Positions 7,995 to 20,894 are shown, counted from the stretch's first letter. The stretch is 21,668 nucleotides of DNA from a virus (IMGVR_UViG_3300032893_003188:1-21668), one strand, 5' to 3'. The notes: generated by a model from the letters alone, not told the origin. Numbers and translations are program-made.

Positions 7995-8611
7995 TGTCCT
8001 CCCCATGCCCGAACCAACTGGGCCTCGTACTCGGCTTTGGCGCTCTCGTACTTGGCTGACTCCTCGCCGAGCGTGTACCGCAAAATGAAAGCCTCAAAGC
8101 CCTTCGCCAGGACGCCGTGCAGTTGCGGAGGAACCAAAGGAACCGCAGAGTCTTGCGTAATCGCGTCCACGGGGATGGCCCAATACACCAGCACCATCGG
8201 ATACACCGCATCTGGAGTAGGCGAGAGGATGAGGCTGGTGTAGTCGCCGAGCGCGCGGAAGTAAGAGTCCGGCCGCTCCGAAGTGTCCATGCTCTGCCGC
8301 CTCGCCTGGTCGATCTCCGACACCACCTCGTCCAGCAGGTCGGCATCATCGGGCGCGGTGATGATCTGCACGTTTTCGATGTCATCCACGTCGCAGGCCG
8401 AGCCTTGCGTACTTTGGCTTTCCACTGGCAGAGCGTATTTCGGCGTTGTCGCCACCGTGCTGAAGCTGTAAATCTTCTTGCGCCACTCCCAGGCGTGCGA
8501 CTTGCAAAATTCCTGAATCACGATGAGCAGTTCGGCGTAGAGGTTGAGCACCTTCACGCCGCGCTGTTCCGTCCGGGCTGTAGCGAGAGCAACGATGTCC
8601 CCACACGTCAC
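7991..8611 (-). CDS. Adaptor-like head-tail connector protein 1
   Basis: A 206-residue protein that resembles the adaptor rings placed under the portal in SU10-type podoviruses. Landmarks are LNLYAELLIVIQEFCKSHAW then EWRKKIYSF near the N-terminus, SYFRALGDYTSLILSPTPDA in the middle, and VLVYWAIPV with VPLVPPQLHGVLAKGFEAFI toward the end. The same landmarks recur in the protein at 4351-5082, so these are paralogs. The start is GTG overlapping the glycosyltransferase stop (GTGA), with GGAGG six bases upstream. Its stop overlaps the spike start (ATGA). Family naming is from recall; homology between the two copies is seen directly. Confidence 0.75.
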   Translation of the reverse strand: MTCGDIVALATARTEQRGVKVLNLYAELLIVIQEFCKSHAWEWRKKIYSFSTVATTPKYALPVESQSTQGSACDVDDIENVQIITAPDDADLLDEVVSEIDQARRQSMDTSERPDSYFRALGDYTSLILSPTPDAVYPMVLVYWAIPVDAITQDSAVPLVPPQLHGVLAKGFEAFILRYTLGEESAKYESAKAEYEAQLVRAWGGQ

Positions 8612-9528
8612 GATTCGCCTCCAGCGGCCTTCGCCTGTTCCTCCTCCATCAATTCCTGCTTGTAGATAAGGAAATCCGTGACGCTGTAGCCGTAATCGCC
8701 GTGGTGTTTGGGCTGCACCGCGGTGTCACAGAACACGGGAATCCCGCAGAATTTCGCCTTGAGGCAGAAGCTGATGTCCTCGCCGTACTCCCCGCGCCCA
8801 TTCAAGGCCGGCAGACATTGGAACCAGCATGCGTTCTTCCACCAGCGCGGCTCCCGCTTGTCATCGAACTCGACGCGCCGCCGCACCGCGAGAGCCTGTA
8901 TTTCTGGGGTGTCCCCGTACAACCGCTTCTCGTAGCCGCACGACAGGTAGAACTCTCCGACCTCATCGAGCGCCTTGCGCGAAACCAGCATCATGCCCGT
9001 TCCGATGCCGTCGATCTGGAGCAGTTCGTTGCGCTTCCAGTGCAGGCGCGACTTGAAATCGCCCGTCATATCGTCGAACTCCCGCAAGGTGACATTCGGA
9101 GGGTCGGTGCGAACCGTGCAGAGCGCCCCCACGATGTCCTTCTCATGCGAGAGAAGCCGGACGAGCGAGTCCGGGCCTGGCTCAATGTCGTCGTCAATGA
9201 ACAGAACGTGCGTCCATGGCGTTCCGCTCTCCCGGTAGAGTTCGGCCACCATTTCGTTGCGCACCCAATGCACCAGAGAGTGCCCATAGACGATGACGCT
9301 GTGGATCGCCACACCGGCCTCCCGCGACGCGCACAGCATCTTCTCCATCGCCTTCTCGCAGTCGCGCTTGACGTTATCGAGGCTCGGAATGAGCACCGCT
9401 ACGCACGCGCCATGCTTGGGCGGAATGACGCGGAAGCCGAGCTTGCGCAGCAGTACCTCGCGCCCATCGGGGTCGCGCACCATGCGGTCGATCTGGCGCT
9501 CCCAATTCTGGATTCTGTCGTCTGTCAT
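8608..9528 (-). CDS. GT-A fold glycosyltransferase
   Basis: A 306-residue protein with the layout of GT-A glycosyltransferases, which transfer a sugar from a nucleotide donor. ACVAVLIPSLDNVK (41-54) is the first strand and nucleotide site; HVLFIDDDIEPGPD (107-120) contains the metal-binding DDD (112-114); QIDGIGTGMMLVSRKAL (171-187) and GEYGEDISFCLKA (246-258) hold the acceptor loop and the usual acidic catalytic pair (E250, D251); PKHHGD (273-278) supplies late His residues. It overlaps its neighbours on both sides (ATGA, GTGA) and so is part of the structural operon, not a loose cargo gene. A virion protein is a plausible acceptor; host surface sugar is an alternative. Confidence 0.82.
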   Translation of the reverse strand: MTDDRIQNWERQIDRMVRDPDGREVLLRKLGFRVIPPKHGACVAVLIPSLDNVKRDCEKAMEKMLCASREAGVAIHSVIVYGHSLVHWVRNEMVAELYRESGTPWTHVLFIDDDIEPGPDSLVRLLSHEKDIVGALCTVRTDPPNVTLREFDDMTGDFKSRLHWKRNELLQIDGIGTGMMLVSRKALDEVGEFYLSCGYEKRLYGDTPEIQALAVRRRVEFDDKREPRWWKNACWFQCLPALNGRGEYGEDISFCLKAKFCGIPVFCDTAVQPKHHGDYGYSVTDFLIYKQELMEEEQAKAAGGES

Positions 9529-14013: not shown

Positions 14014-14235
14014 TCAAAGGTCCAGCAGCTCCTGCATGAACGTCTCATACGCCTGCGCTTTGGCCGCATAATCCGCCGCCACTTCAGGGTCGCGCGGTAC
14101 GTGCGCCATCGCCTGCGCGCAGGCCCGGCGGCACTCGTCAGCCTTCATCTCGCAGAACTTCTCCAGCAACGCCCTGAGGTGTGTGCTGTCCTTCAGGTCT
14201 TCCAACACATGCCGTTCCAGATCGGAGAAGTCCAT
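14014..14235 (-). CDS. Small helical protein after portal
   Basis: A 73-residue protein, mostly charged helix, that I do not recognise. It is rich in Glu, Lys and Ala, with CEMKADECRRACAQAMAHV in the middle carrying three cysteines. No membrane segment is present. The ATG shares its first base with the portal stop (TGATG), and AAGG lies six bases upstream inside the portal gene, so it is very likely translated by coupling to the portal. A GTG one codon earlier is in frame. Position and size would suit a head accessory or assembly factor, but this is inference from context only. Confidence 0.7.
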   Translation of the reverse strand: MDFSDLERHVLEDLKDSTHLRALLEKFCEMKADECRRACAQAMAHVPRDPEVAADYAAKAQAYETFMQELLDL

Positions 14236-16505
14236 CACGCGCCTTGCCCTGCCGCCGCGAGCTTTTGCTGGCCCGCGTCCGTCTGTTCGGCCGCCGATAG
14301 CAAGTTGCTCGCGTGGTCGGCCGCCTGGGACAACTTCCCTACCGCGTTGATCGTCGCCTCGTGCTTGAGTTCCTGGCTCGGTTGCAGCCCCAACATCGGC
14401 AGGATTTGGTTCTGCACGTCCTCCGGCAGGTTGTCGAAGGGCATCGACAGCGAGATATTGATCTTCGCTGGTGGAGGCCCGGGATTCGGATTCTCGGGCT
14501 TGATGTAACTGTCCGGGTCGCCAATCCCGCGAATCGTGCCCAGATGGAACCGCACCACCTTGCGGATGTCGATCACGTCCGGCGCCGAGAGTGCCACTTG
14601 CTCCAGATCGTTCGCCGCCGCCCTCCGCAGATCATCGTCTACCGCGAGGTACGAGCCGGCCTCAGCTTCCACCTGGAAGTCCTCTTGAATCTCCAGCGGA
14701 TTGACGCGGATGGCAGCGGTCTTACCGTACCCGCTCGACAACACCCACTGCTCCGGCTGCATCACCGTAGGGTCGAAGTTGATGCCGCGCTCCGCCAGTT
14801 CCTGCGGGTCCATCTGCGACAGCATCTTCCGCAGTTCGGGCGACCAGTAGCGCGACTCAATCTCCCAATCGTCCGACGCTGCCTGCTGGATCATCCAGAG
14901 CTTCTTCTGGCCGAGTTCGCGAAGGTAGATGTTGCGCCCGTCGATCTTGAACTGCAGCAGTGCGTCATACGCCTTCGCCGCCAGCATCGAGGTGGTCGCC
15001 GTCTTGCCGGCTTGCGGATTCATCGAAGTGCCGGACTCGACACTATTCAGCGACGGCTCTGCGATGCCCAGAATGCGCCACAACTCCGCACTCCGCTCGA
15101 ACGCTCCGCTCGGCAGCGGAGGCTCGTTCAGGAATTGGAAGTTCTTGATGTCCTTCACCCGCAGTTCGCGCCAATTCCCGCGGTTCGTGGCCTCGTCGGC
15201 AACATCCTCCTTCCCCTGTACCAGCAGGAACTTCTTGAGCAAGCTGGTGATGTAGTCGAAGTTCTGCCCATACGTGTAGTTGAGCAGCATGTGGATGTAG
15301 CGCAGCAGCCGGGGCGTCGAGTCGCCCACCAGCGAGATCAAATCAGGCAGCGGGACGAACTCCGTGTAAACGTACTTCCCATAAAGCTCCCACGGATACG
15401 GCATCCTGCCGAGGGGCTTGTCGCGCAGGTGCTCACTCACCCACGTTACCCACATGCGGCCATCGTCGCCCTGCTCGTGGCACTCCAGAATGTCGAACCG
15501 CTTGCGGGGCAAGAGCCTCCGATTCATGTACGGAGTGCTCTTTCCAATCACGTCGCGGAACATCTGCCGCAGATTGGAAACCTTCGCGTCCTCTTGCTCC
15601 GGCCCGGGGTTCAGGTCGAGAAGCTCCTGGCAGGCTTTCGGGTCGAACGCATTGATTGCCTGTCCGCTGTCGTCCCGGTACGTGACCTTCTGCATCTTCT
15701 CCAGCCAGAGGTCGTTTTCGGTGTAGGACTCGACGATATAGGAGGAATCGTCGAGGTACAGGATGCCAGGCTCGAAAAACAGGTCGCCAACGAACAGCGA
15801 TTTCACCGTTGGGCCTTCGTACTGCTTCACCTTCTGGGGCACGATGATCTCGTTGCCGCCCTTCCCGAGGAACTGCGTAATCTCGTCGTCGCTCATGTCC
15901 GGCCCGAGCGTATCCACCGCGCTCTGAATCTCCTCCTCGGGAGCGCCTTGCGCCGCCATCACCGAGCGCCTGTCTCGGAAAATGACCTGGTTGCCCTTCA
16001 TCAACGCCTGCCGATAGACGCGAGTGGCCGCGATGGTGTTCCACCACAGCTTTCCCTGGCCGAAGCCGAACGCCTCTGCCATCATCACCACACGCCGATC
16101 ATCCCGCGCCTCGTTCGAACGGTCGTACTGCTGCCCCGCCTGAGCGCTCAGCGCCTCGGCAATCAGCGGGTTGCTGCCACCGATGTAGCGCAGGGTGTAC
16201 GGCTGCGCGGTCATCCGGGCAGCGTTGCGCCGGAACATCATGTTCAGGTCGGGCATAGCCACGGCGGTGCGTTGCTTGTCCTCTACTTCCCTGCCGTTGG
16301 CATCCAGCTTCTTGAACGGCTCCACACGGCACTTGATCGCGCGATACGTCTCCACCAGCTCGTCGTAATAGTTCGCCACCATCCAGTCGCGGGACTGGTT
16401 CCTGCGCTCAATGATGTCGGTCACCGTGGCATCGACGGGAGTTGTCCCGTCGTTTACCTTGGCGTCCTGCGTGTCCGTGTTGGAGCCGTCGTAGGAAGTG
16501 TCCAT
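14235..16505 (-). CDS. Portal protein
   Basis: A 756-residue portal of the P22 type, the ring at the capsid vertex through which DNA enters and leaves. Support comes from the large size, the opening with ERRNQSRDWMVANYYDELVE, the crown and wing features (MPDLNMMFRRNAARMTAQPY, VKSLFVGDLFFEPG), a long central section with PLPDLISLVGDSTPRLLRYI, the segment SGTSMNPQAGKTATTSML, and a helical, Gln-rich C-terminus that suits a barrel. The position just after the terminase and before scaffold and capsid also fits. The start is uncertain: ATG at 16505 is chosen, with a GTG at 16520 possible, but neither has a ribosome binding site, because REP-like sequence runs to within two bases of the ATG. The stop overlaps the next ATG (TGATG). 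Confidence 0.88.
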   Translation of the reverse strand: MDTSYDGSNTDTQDAKVNDGTTPVDATVTDIIERRNQSRDWMVANYYDELVETYRAIKCRVEPFKKLDANGREVEDKQRTAVAMPDLNMMFRRNAARMTAQPYTLRYIGGSNPLIAEALSAQAGQQYDRSNEARDDRRVVMMAEAFGFGQGKLWWNTIAATRVYRQALMKGNQVIFRDRRSVMAAQGAPEEEIQSAVDTLGPDMSDDEITQFLGKGGNEIIVPQKVKQYEGPTVKSLFVGDLFFEPGILYLDDSSYIVESYTENDLWLEKMQKVTYRDDSGQAINAFDPKACQELLDLNPGPEQEDAKVSNLRQMFRDVIGKSTPYMNRRLLPRKRFDILECHEQGDDGRMWVTWVSEHLRDKPLGRMPYPWELYGKYVYTEFVPLPDLISLVGDSTPRLLRYIHMLLNYTYGQNFDYITSLLKKFLLVQGKEDVADEATNRGNWRELRVKDIKNFQFLNEPPLPSGAFERSAELWRILGIAEPSLNSVESGTSMNPQAGKTATTSMLAAKAYDALLQFKIDGRNIYLRELGQKKLWMIQQAASDDWEIESRYWSPELRKMLSQMDPQELAERGINFDPTVMQPEQWVLSSGYGKTAAIRVNPLEIQEDFQVEAEAGSYLAVDDDLRRAAANDLEQVALSAPDVIDIRKVVRFHLGTIRGIGDPDSYIKPENPNPGPPPAKINISLSMPFDNLPEDVQNQILPMLGLQPSQELKHEATINAVGKLSQAADHASNLLSAAEQTDAGQQKLAAAGQGA

Positions 16506-16507
16506 GC

Positions 16508-16657
16508 TTTGAAGGGGCACGGCTTCAGAAGCCTGCCGATAGAGTCGAACTGGTGGTAGAGCTGGCCTTCAGGCCTGCGTTCACGCGCGTTTGTTTTGAA
16601 GGGGCACGGCTTTAGCCGTGCCGATACTCGGCATTTAAAAGAGGGGCTTTAGCCCCT
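16508..16657. repeat. Cluster of REP-like hairpins
   Basis: Four short GC-rich hairpins lie in tandem between the terminase nuclease gene and the portal gene. Three have a four-base TTTA or TTCA loop: GGCC-TTCA-GGCC (16564-16575), GGCACGGC-TTTA-GCCGTGCC (16603-16622, perfect 8-bp stem) and AGGGGC-TTTA-GCCCCT (16642-16657, perfect 6-bp stem). The fourth, at 16516-16537, is a degenerate version of the third. An 18-base direct repeat, TTTGAAGGGGCACGGCTT, starts at 16508 and again at 16595. Stem, loop and flanks resemble REP elements moved by Y1 (RAYT) transposases in GC-rich bacteria; I recall such sequences as common in Acidobacteriota. In RNA these hairpins could also dampen transcription or protect transcript ends. 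Confidence 0.7.
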
Positions 16658-16661
16658 AAGG

Positions 16662-17699
16662 TCAATACGCGATTCCGGGCGTCGCCTGCCTGAATCCTTC
16701 CGTTGCTCCGCGTGGCGGAACGTAAGTCGGATTCGCCATGCAGAGGTAGCGCAGGTTGTCCGTCATGTGCTTGCGCACGTCCACTGGCTCTCCCGTTGGG
16801 TCCATGCGTTCCACCTGCAGAGGCGAAAGCGTCTGCCTCCGCACCGTGTCGAGTTCGTAGATCAACTCCGGGCAGCGGTCTTCGAAGATGTGCAAGCGGC
16901 TGCTCTTGCGGAAGCCATCGACGCCGTCGTCCACCTCGCGCGGCAGCAGGTACTCGTTGACGCAATCCTCGCCCACGCCGCGGTCTTTCTTCGCATCCTT
17001 GAAGCGCAACTCCCAATCGACGTCCAGTTCCTCGGCCAACTCACGCGCCTTCTGCTCGAAGCGTTGCTGGAAGTTCGGCTGCTCCGGGTCGTCCGAAGTG
17101 CCCTTGCCGAAGGCCCGCACCGCGTAGTCAATCTCGCGCTCGTAAACCGCCTCGTCAAACCGCTCGCCGTTGTACTCGTTCTGCGGGTTCTCCTTCGATT
17201 CCAGGTAATAGATCGTCTCGACGTAGTGCCGAATCCGGTAGCGGTTATCGTCCGCCGGACACGGGCCGGGCTTGCCGTAAGCCCTCGACGGCCACAACTC
17301 GCGGTAAATCCACAGGTCGCCCCACGGGTCAACCGCTCCCCACAGACAGGCGTGCGGAACCGCCGGATGCGGGTCAATCGAGAAGTACCGCGTCCAGCTC
17401 GGCGGAATCGGAAACGACTGACACAGCGTCGCCTCCTTATCGAGGTGATAGACCTTCTGACCCTGCGTAGCGCCGAAGTCGATCTCGTACTCTTGCAGGT
17501 ACATCTCCTTCTTGGTCATGCCCCGGTACTGCGCCAGCGCCCAAGGCGACAGTGCCAGCCCGAGTTCGGGCACCACCGTCTTTTCCCCGTTGCCCTTGTC
17601 GGGGTCGGCGGAATAGTGCAGGAACACCAACTTGATGCCATGCGGGTTCGTCCGCACGGCAACGCCGGGATGAGGAAATTCCGTCTGTGAGTTGCTCAC
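16662..17699 (-). CDS. terL: Terminase large subunit, nuclease half (split gene)
   Basis: A 345-residue protein matching the linker and C-terminal nuclease domain of a terminase large subunit. HYSADPDKG (28-36) and MYLQEYEIDFGATQG (66-80) are the conserved run-in to the nuclease. YFSIDPHP (105-112) provides the first catalytic acid, D109, and VDVRKHMTDNLRY (306-318) the late acidic cluster, D308 and D314. It starts almost exactly where the ATPase half at 20235 stops, and the two together total 564 residues, a normal full length. The only in-frame start is GTG; no good ribosome binding site precedes it, and GTGAG-CAA-CTCAC can fold over the start codon. The frame is open for another 25 codons upstream without a start. 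Confidence 0.9.
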   Translation of the reverse strand: MSNSQTEFPHPGVAVRTNPHGIKLVFLHYSADPDKGNGEKTVVPELGLALSPWALAQYRGMTKKEMYLQEYEIDFGATQGQKVYHLDKEATLCQSFPIPPSWTRYFSIDPHPAVPHACLWGAVDPWGDLWIYRELWPSRAYGKPGPCPADDNRYRIRHYVETIYYLESKENPQNEYNGERFDEAVYEREIDYAVRAFGKGTSDDPEQPNFQQRFEQKARELAEELDVDWELRFKDAKKDRGVGEDCVNEYLLPREVDDGVDGFRKSSRLHIFEDRCPELIYELDTVRRQTLSPLQVERMDPTGEPVDVRKHMTDNLRYLCMANPTYVPPRGATEGFRQATPGIAY

Positions 17700-17764
17700 T
17701 GAAGTGTTACTCAGGTTGGCCTTTACGACGCTAGCTGGCGCGAGCGCCTCATTCGGGCCTTCTG

Positions 17765-18895
17765 CTAGTGCTCAGGAAGCTCGGACGCTTTCATCCTAGA
17801 TAAACGAGAATCTTCGAGTTCTTGCAAAATTGTCCTCCCACGCGCAAGCTGCTCTTCCGTGAGAGGGAGCTGATCCACGTATTCGGCCCCTGCTTCCACC
17901 TGATCAACGATATTGTCGAAGTCGAATCGGGACATCCAGCTCTTTTCCACCAAACACTCAAAGAGGGTACGACAATTACCTCTCGGCTCATCACCTCGAT
18001 CAAGTACTCGCTTCACAAGCCACAAGCACACGTCCACAATCTGCAAACCAAAACTGATGGAGGATGACCGTACTACCAACGGGCAGTCGAAAGTGGGAAG
18101 TACTCTAATATCGGAAATAAGTGACATCGGCCTCTCGTCACCCTTAACCTTCGAGAGGAAGTCGAAGGCCCTTGCAAACGACGGAACGAATTGATTCTGT
18201 TCATCGTGGACGAAACTCCCGATCACGTGACCGTGCTCTTCATGTAAATCATGGAGATGATTGAAAAGACCGGCAAACGCCACGAAATTCGGCGAATCGC
18301 CCTCTCCAAAAGGATCGAGCACGACGTCAGGATGTTCACTTGCCCAGTTCAACACGTCGGACAGGATTTGAAGGCTCCGCTTGTCGTAGGGACTTCCCGC
18401 GACTCGACCAGCAATCGCACGCAACAGGACACTGAACCGTTGTGTATCTCGCGACTCGAAAACGGACCAGAATTCCTTCAAATCATCCAGAGTCAAAAGC
18501 TGAACAAAATGCATTAGATTGATCAGCCGTAACTGCCTTATTCCATAGCCGTGCGACGGCATAGCCGCGTTGGCGCCAGAGTCGAACACGAGGTCGAACA
18601 GTTTTGAGGCCGCAAGGAACGGTTTGTGTACTCGGCCAAAAGTGAAATGCAGCTTCTTCTCACGAATAAACCAACTGAGGCGGCCACCTATCTTTTCAAT
18701 TCCTCCGAAGCCAAGCTCAGATCCATGCAGTTCCGTCTTGCCCACCGTATCGAGCAACTCTTTGTGAAATGTCTTGTACTTTGCGTCGACATCTGCGAAG
18801 GCGATGAGCGTCCCAGTCCAGAACGTCTCCTGGTCCACGTCGAAAAGCCTCAGTCCAGAATTACCGGACTCGTCGGTGTATGCGTAGCATCTCAT
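17765..18895 (-). CDS. DUF3800 protein, cargo gene
   Basis: A 376-residue member of the DUF3800 family. The family signature is visible: YTDESGNS at residues 6-13 near the N-terminus, HGSEL at 57-61, HDEQNQF at 230-236, and SFGLQIVDVCLW at 281-292. The spaced acidic residues (D8, E9, D231, D288) suit the RNase H-like fold proposed for the family, but no activity is established. The gene is noticeably richer in A and T than its neighbours and is separated by 75 bases upstream and 65 downstream, unlike the overlapping genes before it; this points to separate acquisition. A TATATT box lies 17 bases before the ATG (18913-18918), but no convincing -35 accompanies it. Ribosome binding signal is weak. 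Confidence 0.85.
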   Translation of the reverse strand: MRCYAYTDESGNSGLRLFDVDQETFWTGTLIAFADVDAKYKTFHKELLDTVGKTELHGSELGFGGIEKIGGRLSWFIREKKLHFTFGRVHKPFLAASKLFDLVFDSGANAAMPSHGYGIRQLRLINLMHFVQLLTLDDLKEFWSVFESRDTQRFSVLLRAIAGRVAGSPYDKRSLQILSDVLNWASEHPDVVLDPFGEGDSPNFVAFAGLFNHLHDLHEEHGHVIGSFVHDEQNQFVPSFARAFDFLSKVKGDERPMSLISDIRVLPTFDCPLVVRSSSISFGLQIVDVCLWLVKRVLDRGDEPRGNCRTLFECLVEKSWMSRFDFDNIVDQVEAGAEYVDQLPLTEEQLARGRTILQELEDSRLSRMKASELPEH

Positions 18896-18970
18896 TAGGC
18901 GGTTCTGCTCTCAATATACCGAAGTCCGCGCCGTGAAATTGACCTCTTGGATGCGAGCCGAGAGACAACG

Positions 18971-19423
18971 CTACATGCCCCTCGGTCTGCCCCCGAAGTC
19001 GCCCATAAAAGCGCTGAGGGCGGGCTTCGTCTTGCCCTTCGGCATGCCCTTCGGGACACCCCTGCCGACCGCGCGCTTCATCAGCCGACTCATTGGCGGT
19101 TTCCTCTGCAACTGCACCGGGCCGCGCCTGCTCACGTCGCGCCTCAACCCGCCCGCGATCGCTTCCTGTGCGAGAGATTCCTCCATGGGATTCACCGCCT
19201 TCTGGCTGTCGTCCGCGTCGAAGTCCGGAGTGCGCCGCGCGGCATCCATCAGGTCGTCGTCGTCCGGTTCCATCGTGGGCAGGGGCGAGTTGCCGAGTTG
19301 AACGTTCGGGGAGAGTCGGCTTTGCAAGTGCGGTTTGAGGTGCTTCGGAGTCCTGGGTGATTTCATGGCGGCTGCCACCCCCTTCATCATGTGTTGGCGC
19401 TGTCGCGGATGCTGGAATCCCAT
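18971..19423 (-). CDS. Unknown basic phage protein
   Basis: A 150-residue protein that I do not recognise. It has a basic N-terminus containing MKSPRTPKHLKPHLQSRL, an acidic centre with EPDDDDLMDAARRTPDFDAD, and a C-terminus rich in Arg, Lys, Pro and Gly (VGRGVPKGMPKGKTKP). No membrane segment, enzyme motif or cysteine is seen, and it looks largely disordered. The ATG at 19423 is favoured because GGAGAG sits eight bases upstream; a GTG three codons earlier (19432) overlaps the previous stop and is an alternative. It travels with the methyltransferase and the small basic protein as a tight three-gene unit placed between the two terminase halves. Confidence 0.65.
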   Translation of the reverse strand: MGFQHPRQRQHMMKGVAAAMKSPRTPKHLKPHLQSRLSPNVQLGNSPLPTMEPDDDDLMDAARRTPDFDADDSQKAVNPMEESLAQEAIAGGLRRDVSRRGPVQLQRKPPMSRLMKRAVGRGVPKGMPKGKTKPALSAFMGDFGGRPRGM

Positions 19424-19428
19424 GTCGG

Positions 19429-19650
19429 TCACTCTCCGTAGAAGGCGTCGCGCCTCGGCTTGCGCGTGCCTTTTTTCTTTCCCTTGGGGCGGTACCTCTC
19501 GAATGTCTCCGCCAGACGCGCCTCCTCGCCAAGAGCGCCAGGTGCGCCGGATTCCTCCCTGGCATACTCCGCCGTTGACTTTCCGGCAGCCTTAGCCTTC
19601 GCGCTAAAGCGGCCAGGATGCTTCACAGCGCCCGCCATCCAGTCAGTCAT
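19429..19650 (-). CDS. Small basic phage protein
   Basis: A 73-residue, Lys/Arg-rich protein beginning MTDWMAGAVKHPGRFSAKAK. The pattern of a W..xAVKHPG opening, a Lys/Ala-rich middle and a late ARLAETFERY plus basic tail resembles a small protein of unknown function found beside structural genes in many phages. The ATG shares one base with the stop of the methyltransferase gene (TAATG), and GGAG lies eight bases upstream, so translation is probably coupled. Its role is unknown; a nucleic-acid-binding or internal virion protein would suit its charge, but that is inference. The original frame is open for another 52 codons upstream inside the methyltransferase gene, which I regard as chance. 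Confidence 0.75.
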   Translation of the reverse strand: MTDWMAGAVKHPGRFSAKAKAAGKSTAEYAREESGAPGALGEEARLAETFERYRPKGKKKGTRKPRRDAFYGE

Positions 19651-20156
19651 TACATTGACTCCACCATCGGTGTGAAGTTGGCGTACCCAACGACTTCCTT
19701 TAGTTCCATGCCCGGCCCGTGCTTCTCGTACACACAGATCCTGCACGTCCCTCCTACCCGCATCGGCACCACCAGGCGCCCGCCGTCCTTGAGTTGCGCC
19801 ACCCACGAGGCCATGATCCTCGGCGCCGCGAAGGTCACCAGCACCTCGTCGAACTGCTCGCCGGTATCGTAGGTGCAGCCGTCCGCTTTCACGAGCGTGA
19901 CGTTGGCTGGCAGCTTGTCCTGCAACAGCCCAGTTGGCGGCTGCACCTCGATGCTTAGAACCTCTTTACACCGCTCGGCGAGAATCGCTGTCTGATAGCC
20001 CGAGCCCGTACCAATCTCCAGCACCTTCTCTGCCGGCCCGAGCAGCGACGCCAGCCATAGCGCCATCTCCTCGGTCGGCACCGTGCAGTAAGGCGAAATC
20101 ACTACCGGATAAGTTGGGTTCGTTCCGTCCGGGGTGAACGCGCGTCGGTCGATCAT
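19650..20156 (-). CDS. PCMT-like methyltransferase
   Basis: A 168-residue class I SAM-dependent methyltransferase close to protein-L-isoaspartate O-methyltransferases. The SAM-binding motif I is clear (VLEIGTGSGYQTAILA, about residues 40-55), preceded by the family's VISPYCTVPTEEMALWL segment, and followed by EVLVTFAAPRI and GGRLVVPM. Host PCMTs usually run near 210 residues; this one is shorter at the N-terminus. I chose the ATG at 20156 because GAGG lies five bases upstream; a TTG nine codons further up is in frame but less likely. The stop overlaps the next start (TAATG). It is the first gene inside the terminase split. The substrate is unknown: virion protein repair and modification of a host protein are both possible. 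Confidence 0.85.
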   Translation of the reverse strand: MIDRRAFTPDGTNPTYPVVISPYCTVPTEEMALWLASLLGPAEKVLEIGTGSGYQTAILAERCKEVLSIEVQPPTGLLQDKLPANVTLVKADGCTYDTGEQFDEVLVTFAAPRIMASWVAQLKDGGRLVVPMRVGGTCRICVYEKHGPGMELKEVVGYANFTPMVESM

Positions 20157-20234
20157 GCTGGCCTCGACAAAAACGGGGCACAACCCTGAATAAGGTCATG
20201 CCCCAGCCTTCGCTCCTCGTCGTCGGTGGTATCT

Positions 20235-20894
20235 CTATACCGCTGTCGGCATCGCGCCGCACTGGTCTGCAAACCAACCAGGGCCGGCGGACGAAACTGC
20301 GATGATCTGCTTGGCTACCGGCTGCACCGTGTCATAGCACTGCTGCGCTTCCGGCAGGAACGATGCTTCGTCCATCATGTAACCGTAGGGGTGGAACAAT
20401 CGCACCTGGTTCGCGCCCTTCGGAATCCCGAAGATGCACGACCCATTGGAGAGGGTCAGCGACCGCACATTGTCGCCCACGACCTTCACCCGCGACTTCA
20501 TCCACGGCTCCTGCCGCTGGTACAGAATGCGGCAGTAATTGACCAGCTCGATGGCCTTTTCTTCCTTCTCCGTCTGCAGAATCCACTCGATGTACGGATA
20601 CCACTGGCACATCCACGCGATGTACCCGCACACCAGCCACGAGGTCATCATCTCGCGGCTCTTGGGGATGAAGATTCGCGGCGACTCCAGGATTTCCCGC
20701 AGCACCACCGCGAAGTATTCTTTCACCGGAAAGGGAGCCACCGGAGGCGTTCCCTTCGCCAGCCAATGAAGGTCCTCAGTCGCCGTGTACCTTGTGAGCC
20801 ACAGTAGGCAGCCGGCGTCGAATGACGCTACCCGCTGTCCCATCTTGCGCCACAGCTTCTCGCGGTAGAAAACCTGTTTGCGGTCACGGCTCAC
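20235..20894 (-). CDS. terL: Terminase large subunit, ATPase half (split gene)
   Basis: A 219-residue protein carrying only the motor half of a terminase large subunit. It shows a deviant Walker A (IPKSREMMTSW, residues 76-86), a Walker B (YGYMMDEAS, 170-178, with the acidic pair at 175-176), and a coupling motif (SSAGPGWF, 201-208). It then stops seven residues after FADQC, at the point where family members continue into the nuclease domain. The nuclease half is a separate gene at 16662-17699. The GTG start overlaps the terS stop. The reading frame is intact with no internal stop, so it looks like a kept gene, not debris. Whether it works as a separate polypeptide, is restored by splicing, or is dead cannot be told from sequence. 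Confidence 0.9.
   Translation of the reverse strand: MSRDRKQVFYREKLWRKMGQRVASFDAGCLLWLTRYTATEDLHWLAKGTPPVAPFPVKEYFAVVLREILESPRIFIPKSREMMTSWLVCGYIAWMCQWYPYIEWILQTEKEEKAIELVNYCRILYQRQEPWMKSRVKVVGDNVRSLTLSNGSCIFGIPKGANQVRLFHPYGYMMDEASFLPEAQQCYDTVQPVAKQIIAVSSAGPGWFADQCGAMPTAV

Follow-up and report, generated by a model that had tools for sequence, protein, structure and literature searches.

We analysed a 21,668-nt virus record of the IMG/VR type (IMGVR_UViG_3300032893_003188; this whole stretch is referred to as the window) in which the large terminase subunit (TerL) is encoded by two separate genes, TerL-N and TerL-C. The window belongs to a lineage of tailed phages that are uncultured and probably infect Acidobacteriota; this lineage very probably possesses a natural two-chain large terminase. 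On the minus strand, the small subunit gene (TerS) is followed by TerL-N, four other genes, TerL-C and a portal candidate (Table 1). The gene order TerS-TerL-portal is respected, with TerS before TerL-N, whose start overlaps the TerS stop (GTGA), and the portal candidate after TerL-C. Both halves are intact open reading frames (ORFs), separated by 2,535 nt. An earlier note on this DNA had described intact frames, conserved residues and four genes between halves about 2.5 kb apart, and coordinates and alignments agree with this description.

IMG/VR was scanned with both halves and duplicates were removed, which left 34 contigs carrying both halves, the window included (sequences other than the window are referred to by L numbers). 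TerL-N has the features of a TerL ATPase core: a deviant Walker A motif (PKSREMMTSW) without the usual GK, a Walker B motif with the catalytic glutamate (MMDEA), and motif III (VSSAGPG), one helix beyond which the protein ends. In the alignment of the 34 members K78, R80, S85, E176 and S201 were invariant and D175 nearly so. Profile searches matched TerL-N to the PHROG TerL families phrog_5989 (E = 9e-4) and phrog_2 (E = 6e-3), and its AlphaFold model (predicted local distance difference test, pLDDT, 92.5; predicted template modelling score, pTM, 0.90) had the T4 gp17 ATPase (2o0j) as its best PDB match in Foldseek (E = 2e-11, template modelling score 0.75 on the query). TerL-C has the conserved acidic residues of the C-terminal RNase H-type nuclease of TerL proteins, D109, E134, D191 and D314 being invariant among 38 aligned members, four of which came from further contigs with TerL-C only. 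Its AlphaFold model (pLDDT 80) matched D6E TerL and the P22 nuclease domain (Foldseek, E about 2e-5), and profile comparisons related it to several joined TerLs over their C-terminal part. Pfam TerL models detected neither half in the window.

The position of the break was located by comparison with single-chain proteins. The halves of the relatives are collinear on phrog_2 (N at 258-409, C at 423-596). On P0006, a joined TerL of 491 aa from an acidobacterial genome, the N profile aligned to residues 26-210 (E = 2e-16) and the C profile to residues 235-327 (E = 9e-5, probability 60%), the latter giving modest support for a lid subdomain at the start of TerL-C. Since the two profiles meet on this joined protein, the break falls between motif III and the lid. 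By these comparisons TerL-N is the ATPase core and TerL-C the predicted lid, linker and nuclease, and the break is placed inside the ATPase domain, upstream of the lid, and not at the ATPase-nuclease linker. The terms ATPase half and nuclease half used in the earlier note are thus imprecise, as the lid of the ATPase lies on the C chain. T4 gp17 and other single-chain TerLs have Walker A, Walker B, motif III, lid and RNase H nuclease in the same order, the N core resembles the gp17 structure and P0006 spans both halves; they differ in being one chain, whereas the window lineage has two genes that are divided ahead of the lid.

The split is genuine and heritable and did not arise from misassembly. 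TerL-N and TerL-C are separate ORFs with a common split point in all 34 contigs, and in none of these (0/34) are ATPase and nuclease joined in one chain. The contigs span divergence down to about 30-50% identity with open frames and conserved catalytic residues; their N halves mostly stop no more than about 10 aa past motif III (that of L052 is longer), and their C halves start no more than about 15 aa from an FPHPG motif. The gap between the halves ranges from 0.7 kb in L052, the most distant contig, to 5.6 kb in L033, with a median of 2.7 kb. An assembly chimera or strain mixture might be considered given that the records derive from metagenomes, and a second contig that matches the window at 100% identity along 13,004 nt (IMGVR 3300032829_000294) is possibly from a related sample and was not counted as independent proof. 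However, the same split in 33 diverged contigs from many metagenomes leaves this explanation, which the earlier note had raised as a join or mixture, with a negligible probability. Joined relatives sought from P0006 in viral contigs were not found. Relatives from isolates were restricted to matches of about 22-37% to joined TerLs, and for the TerL-C of the window no isolate relative was found.

Rejoining of the halves ahead of function, through RNA splicing in cis or in trans or through a split intein, would yield a single normal TerL chain. TerL genes are known sites of such elements: in phage Mic1 the gene holds two inteins (PMC7156551) and in Campylobacter phage IBB_35 an intein and an intron (PMC3322345), so that there, as here, TerL is interrupted by foreign sequence. 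Homing endonuclease-type genes moreover lie in the gaps of three relatives (L048 5178-5597, L026 7440-7814 and L018 6973-7383 on the minus strand; LAGLIDADG-like, below the cut-off, and HNH), while no endonuclease gene was recognised in the gap of the window. In Mic1 and IBB_35, however, the parts are rejoined to one chain, whereas the window lineage has no detectable intron or intein. Rfam revealed no intron in the window at an E threshold of 5 and none at gathering score in 13 relatives, a search that unknown intron types could escape, and neither half has extra residues at its split end, which leaves no room for intein halves. The gap varies freely in length and content among the 34 contigs. 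TerL-C starts between -6 and +8 nt from the stop of the upstream ORF in 25 of the 34 contigs (the start codon being unclear in four), and in 9 of 24 contigs the gene following TerL-N, encoding a PCMT-like methyltransferase, starts at the TerL-N stop. These abutting or overlapping starts and stops, together with a terminator-like hairpin directly 3' of TerL-N, are marks of separately translated genes; the hairpin stems from a pattern scan in which terminator-like matches overall were near chance level (7 versus 5.1). As far as the sequence tells, the halves are not rejoined, and we consider rejoining quite unlikely. The hairpin (20174-20205) could give the two chains different levels.

Several observations weigh against a two-chain motor. 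In T4, whose motor is the best studied of this type, gp17 cut at the linker in the laboratory keeps its ATPase and nuclease and loses translocation (PMC3012670). The trees of the N and C halves, which broadly agree (r = 0.89), contain 6 conflicting pairs of supported splits. The sensitivity of the phrog_2 model to these diverged TerLs is poor, with detection in 4 of 25 records, and a second diverged TerL could escape it, and most records may be incomplete. As to the first point, the artificial cut in gp17 was made at the linker, whereas the phage family is cut elsewhere, before the lid, and has kept this cut through deep divergence. The loss of translocation upon splitting would also suit a decaying or stalled phage, or a defective element, that has stopped packaging DNA and retains the split TerL as a relic. 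Yet both halves are under purifying selection: the ratio of nonsynonymous to synonymous substitution rates (dN/dS) between the window and L002 was 0.13 for the N half and 0.16 for the C half, and about 0.03-0.18 for other close pairs where the estimate was finite. Low dN/dS, open frames and conserved catalytic residues in 34 contigs diverged to about 30-50% identity, none of them a prophage in a sequenced host, make such a relic very improbable. Among the three outcomes offered in the earlier note, the two-chain motor is thus retained, and rejoining and a stalled phage are disfavoured by selection, the split in 34 contigs, the lack of an Rfam intron or an intein-sized extension, and the overlapping stops.

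Alternatively, the two genes might not form one motor: TerL-N could act with an unrecognised nuclease, or a second TerL could package the DNA, with another role for TerL-C. The insensitivity of phrog_2 to these proteins leaves room for this, and the two parts have different best joined relatives, T4-type TerLs for the N core and P22/HTVC033P-type TerLs for the nuclease. The N halves also recombine independently. In one sub-clade the C halves of L041, L044, L047, L006, L039, L040 and L048 are 83-91% identical, whereas the N halves of L041, L044 and L047, 83-86% identical to each other, share only 56-64% with those of L006, L039, L040 and L048. Divergent N halves beside near-identical C halves indicate that replacement of the N chain can leave the C chain in place; at least one exchange of the N half has occurred without the C half. 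On the other hand, no contig of sufficient length for both halves holds just one of them, and both halves lie in the TerS-to-portal order. Exactly one TerL-N is present in each of 25 whole records, in which no other TerL was found by phrog_2, the model that is insensitive here. The lid that the ATPase requires is moreover on TerL-C and matches an N-type joined TerL. Two unconnected proteins are thus unlikely. A chimera at the split had been suggested by an 8/8 partition of profile hits, but the test proteins had been chosen by one half and were therefore biased, and a chimera as the cause of the split was dropped in view of the C-chain lid, which matches P0006, a joined TerL of T4 type. Because this lid resembles the N-type joined TerL, any mosaic junction would lie inside the C chain and not at the split; the differing best relatives may reflect an older mosaic event there, or merely limited sensitivity. 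The idea of the earlier note that the halves might match different TerL families thus holds for the N core and the nuclease and fails for the lid, which is T4-type like the N half.

Taken as a two-chain terminase, the system would work as follows, the association of the chains and the function of the complex being what we infer from sequence. TerL-N and TerL-C, translated separately, would most likely bind each other with no peptide bond between them; the lid of TerL-C would close on the nucleotide site of TerL-N and complete its ATPase, and the complex would form a ring-shaped motor at the portal. A single origin of the split in the ancestor of the lineage is probable, perhaps through a homing endonuclease gene or other genes that entered the loop joining motif III to the lid. 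Since then, genes have come and gone in the gap, and the two halves have recombined.

Table 1. Features of the window around the two TerL genes.
Feature	Position	Strand	Basis and remarks
TerS, terminase small subunit, 174 aa	20891-21415	-	Pfam Terminase_2, E 3e-23; phrog_51, 4e-29
TerL-N, 219 aa, predicted ATPase core	20235-20894	-	PHROG TerL matches, conservation in 34 members, AlphaFold and Foldseek to T4 gp17
Terminator-like hairpin directly 3' of TerL-N	20174-20205	-	14 pairs, T-rich tail; fold z -2.7; pattern scan
PCMT-like methyltransferase	19650-20183	-	PF01135, E 2.7e-20; ATG at 20156 likely the true start
sm1 (73 aa), basic, with C-terminal RDAFYGE (FYG tag)	19429-19650	-	Sequence; tag statistics
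sm2, basic protein	18971-19432	-	tblastn: homologous to a gap protein of L002 (50%); likely start ATG at 19423
DUF3800-like protein	17765-18895	-	PF12686, E 8e-4, slightly under the cut-off
TerL-C, 345 aa; predicted lid/linker (residues about 20-85) and RNase H-type nuclease (about 100-320)	16662-17699	-	phrog_10250 and phrog_2 family matches, profile matches to joined TerLs, Foldseek to D6E/P22
Repeat GGCTAAAGCCGTGCCCCTTCAAA between TerL-C and portal candidate	16595-16617	-	Host clue
Portal candidate, 3' of TerL-C in window and relatives	14235-16520	-	Position and conservation; name inferred; no Pfam match

Within the gap of the window, the genes for the PCMT-like protein, sm1 and sm2 are tightly packed, sm1 starting within the PCMT stop (TAATG), while the DUF3800-like gene has a guanine-plus-cytosine (GC) content of 51% compared to about 62% around it. 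This agrees with the earlier description of three tightly coupled insert genes and a fourth of cargo-like composition. The DUF3800-like gene is not found in L002, L005 and L006, and L002 has another gene in its place. Its low GC content and its absence from L002 indicate that the gap was filled in steps, as the earlier note had suggested and as an AT-richer gene missing from a relative at 72% bears out; the DUF3800-like gene is a probable recent cargo. Among the 34 contigs the PCMT gene occurs in 24 and is the first gap gene in most relatives, and histidine phosphatases, a sugar epimerase, homing endonucleases and others vary between gaps. Hence, of the two things that relatives might have shared, the split point is common to the 34 contigs, whereas the insert genes turn over. 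Elsewhere in the window, a 306-aa ORF amid head and tail genes (8608-9528, minus strand) appeared glycosyltransferase-like by eye alone.

Small basic proteins of the gap, such as sm1, end in F-(Y/F)-G followed mostly by E, D or G. This tag was found in 80 of 357 same-strand ORFs within gaps, compared with 2 of 1,081 ORFs outside and 4 of 1,569 antisense ORFs, figures in which homologues are counted several times, so that a Fisher value overstates independence. After removal of duplicates, 81 tagged ORFs remained in 33 of the 34 contigs, forming 15 sequence clusters when the tag was left out of the comparison, with a median net charge of +12. The codons of the tag vary freely, indicating that the peptide and not the DNA is conserved; this rules out a tag that arises from Shine-Dalgarno sequences (GGA GAG) where genes end. 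Two FYG-tagged proteins gave no match when compared with cultured phages. From its sequence pattern the tag looks like a docking peptide. It is conceivable, if rather doubtful, that the motor comprises further chains, with exchangeable TerL-N and TerL-C held or regulated by FYG-docking small basic gap proteins; the gap would then be a functional module, not a cargo dump. In Pelagibacter phage HTVC033P (L109 4341-4859), a different C-terminal ending, MADEKDY and MAEERDY, is common to a pair of small proteins encoded between TerL and portal, so that common tails may be more widespread among small proteins next to TerL.

With regard to the host, GC-rich repeats such as GGCTAAAGCCGTGCCCCTTCAAA lie between TerL-C and the portal candidate (16570-16660, minus strand). 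All 34 stretches of the genome collection that matched GGCTAAAGCCGTGCCCCTTCAAA were titled Acidobacteriota, from which an acidobacterial host follows as the probable one for this family of uncultured soil phages. No prophage of the clade was found in contigs of the genome collection, and 396 Acidobacteriota genomes likewise contained none, but only distant joined TerLs and TerLs split at the linker. The latter, present in Acidobacteriota genomes as adjacent or overlapping ORFs (L118 1306-2861 / L153 6971-8460, L120/L154, L125, possibly L119 and L129), consist of a Terminase_6N ORF followed by a Terminase_6C ORF (clear in L118, weak in L120 and L125) and are split at another site than the window.

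A similar organisation is known from other phage genes in pieces. In Aeh1 NrdA, the gene 43A/43B DNA polymerase and T4 topoisomerase gene 60, one enzyme is likewise made as two separately translated chains. Such chains reassemble, and homing endonuclease genes are associated with the splits (PMC2988022). These cases differ in being enzymes of replication or metabolism with short inserts, whereas the phage family described here has a packaging motor with multi-gene, changing inserts throughout the lineage, and reassembly that is deduced. Two TerL-like genes per genome occur in CBB/Rak2-like and Sinorhizobium phages, CBB having one that is seemingly complete and one truncated, and are not described as complementary halves (PMC5259590). 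Arthrobacter cluster AT phages, compared by description, also have two TerL-related genes per genome that are not described as complementary halves (PMC5513430). Searches of the open-access literature yielded no account of a naturally two-gene TerL of the kind seen in the window, and the phrase 'split terminase' returned 0 papers. The two exons of the herpesvirus terminase gene UL15 flank other genes and are joined by mRNA splicing in the eukaryotic nucleus. The actinophage community names the ATPase and nuclease domains of TerL separately, a hint that further split TerLs exist.

As Pfam is blind to both halves, phage surveys based on TerL can miss this lineage. Single-chain TerLs have served to study the open question of how the lid and the nuclease domain couple ATP hydrolysis in the core to the movement of DNA. 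If the two-chain terminase is what it appears to be, the halves of the motor could be separately mutated, labelled, mixed and titrated, and the covalent linkage between core and lid would be dispensable.

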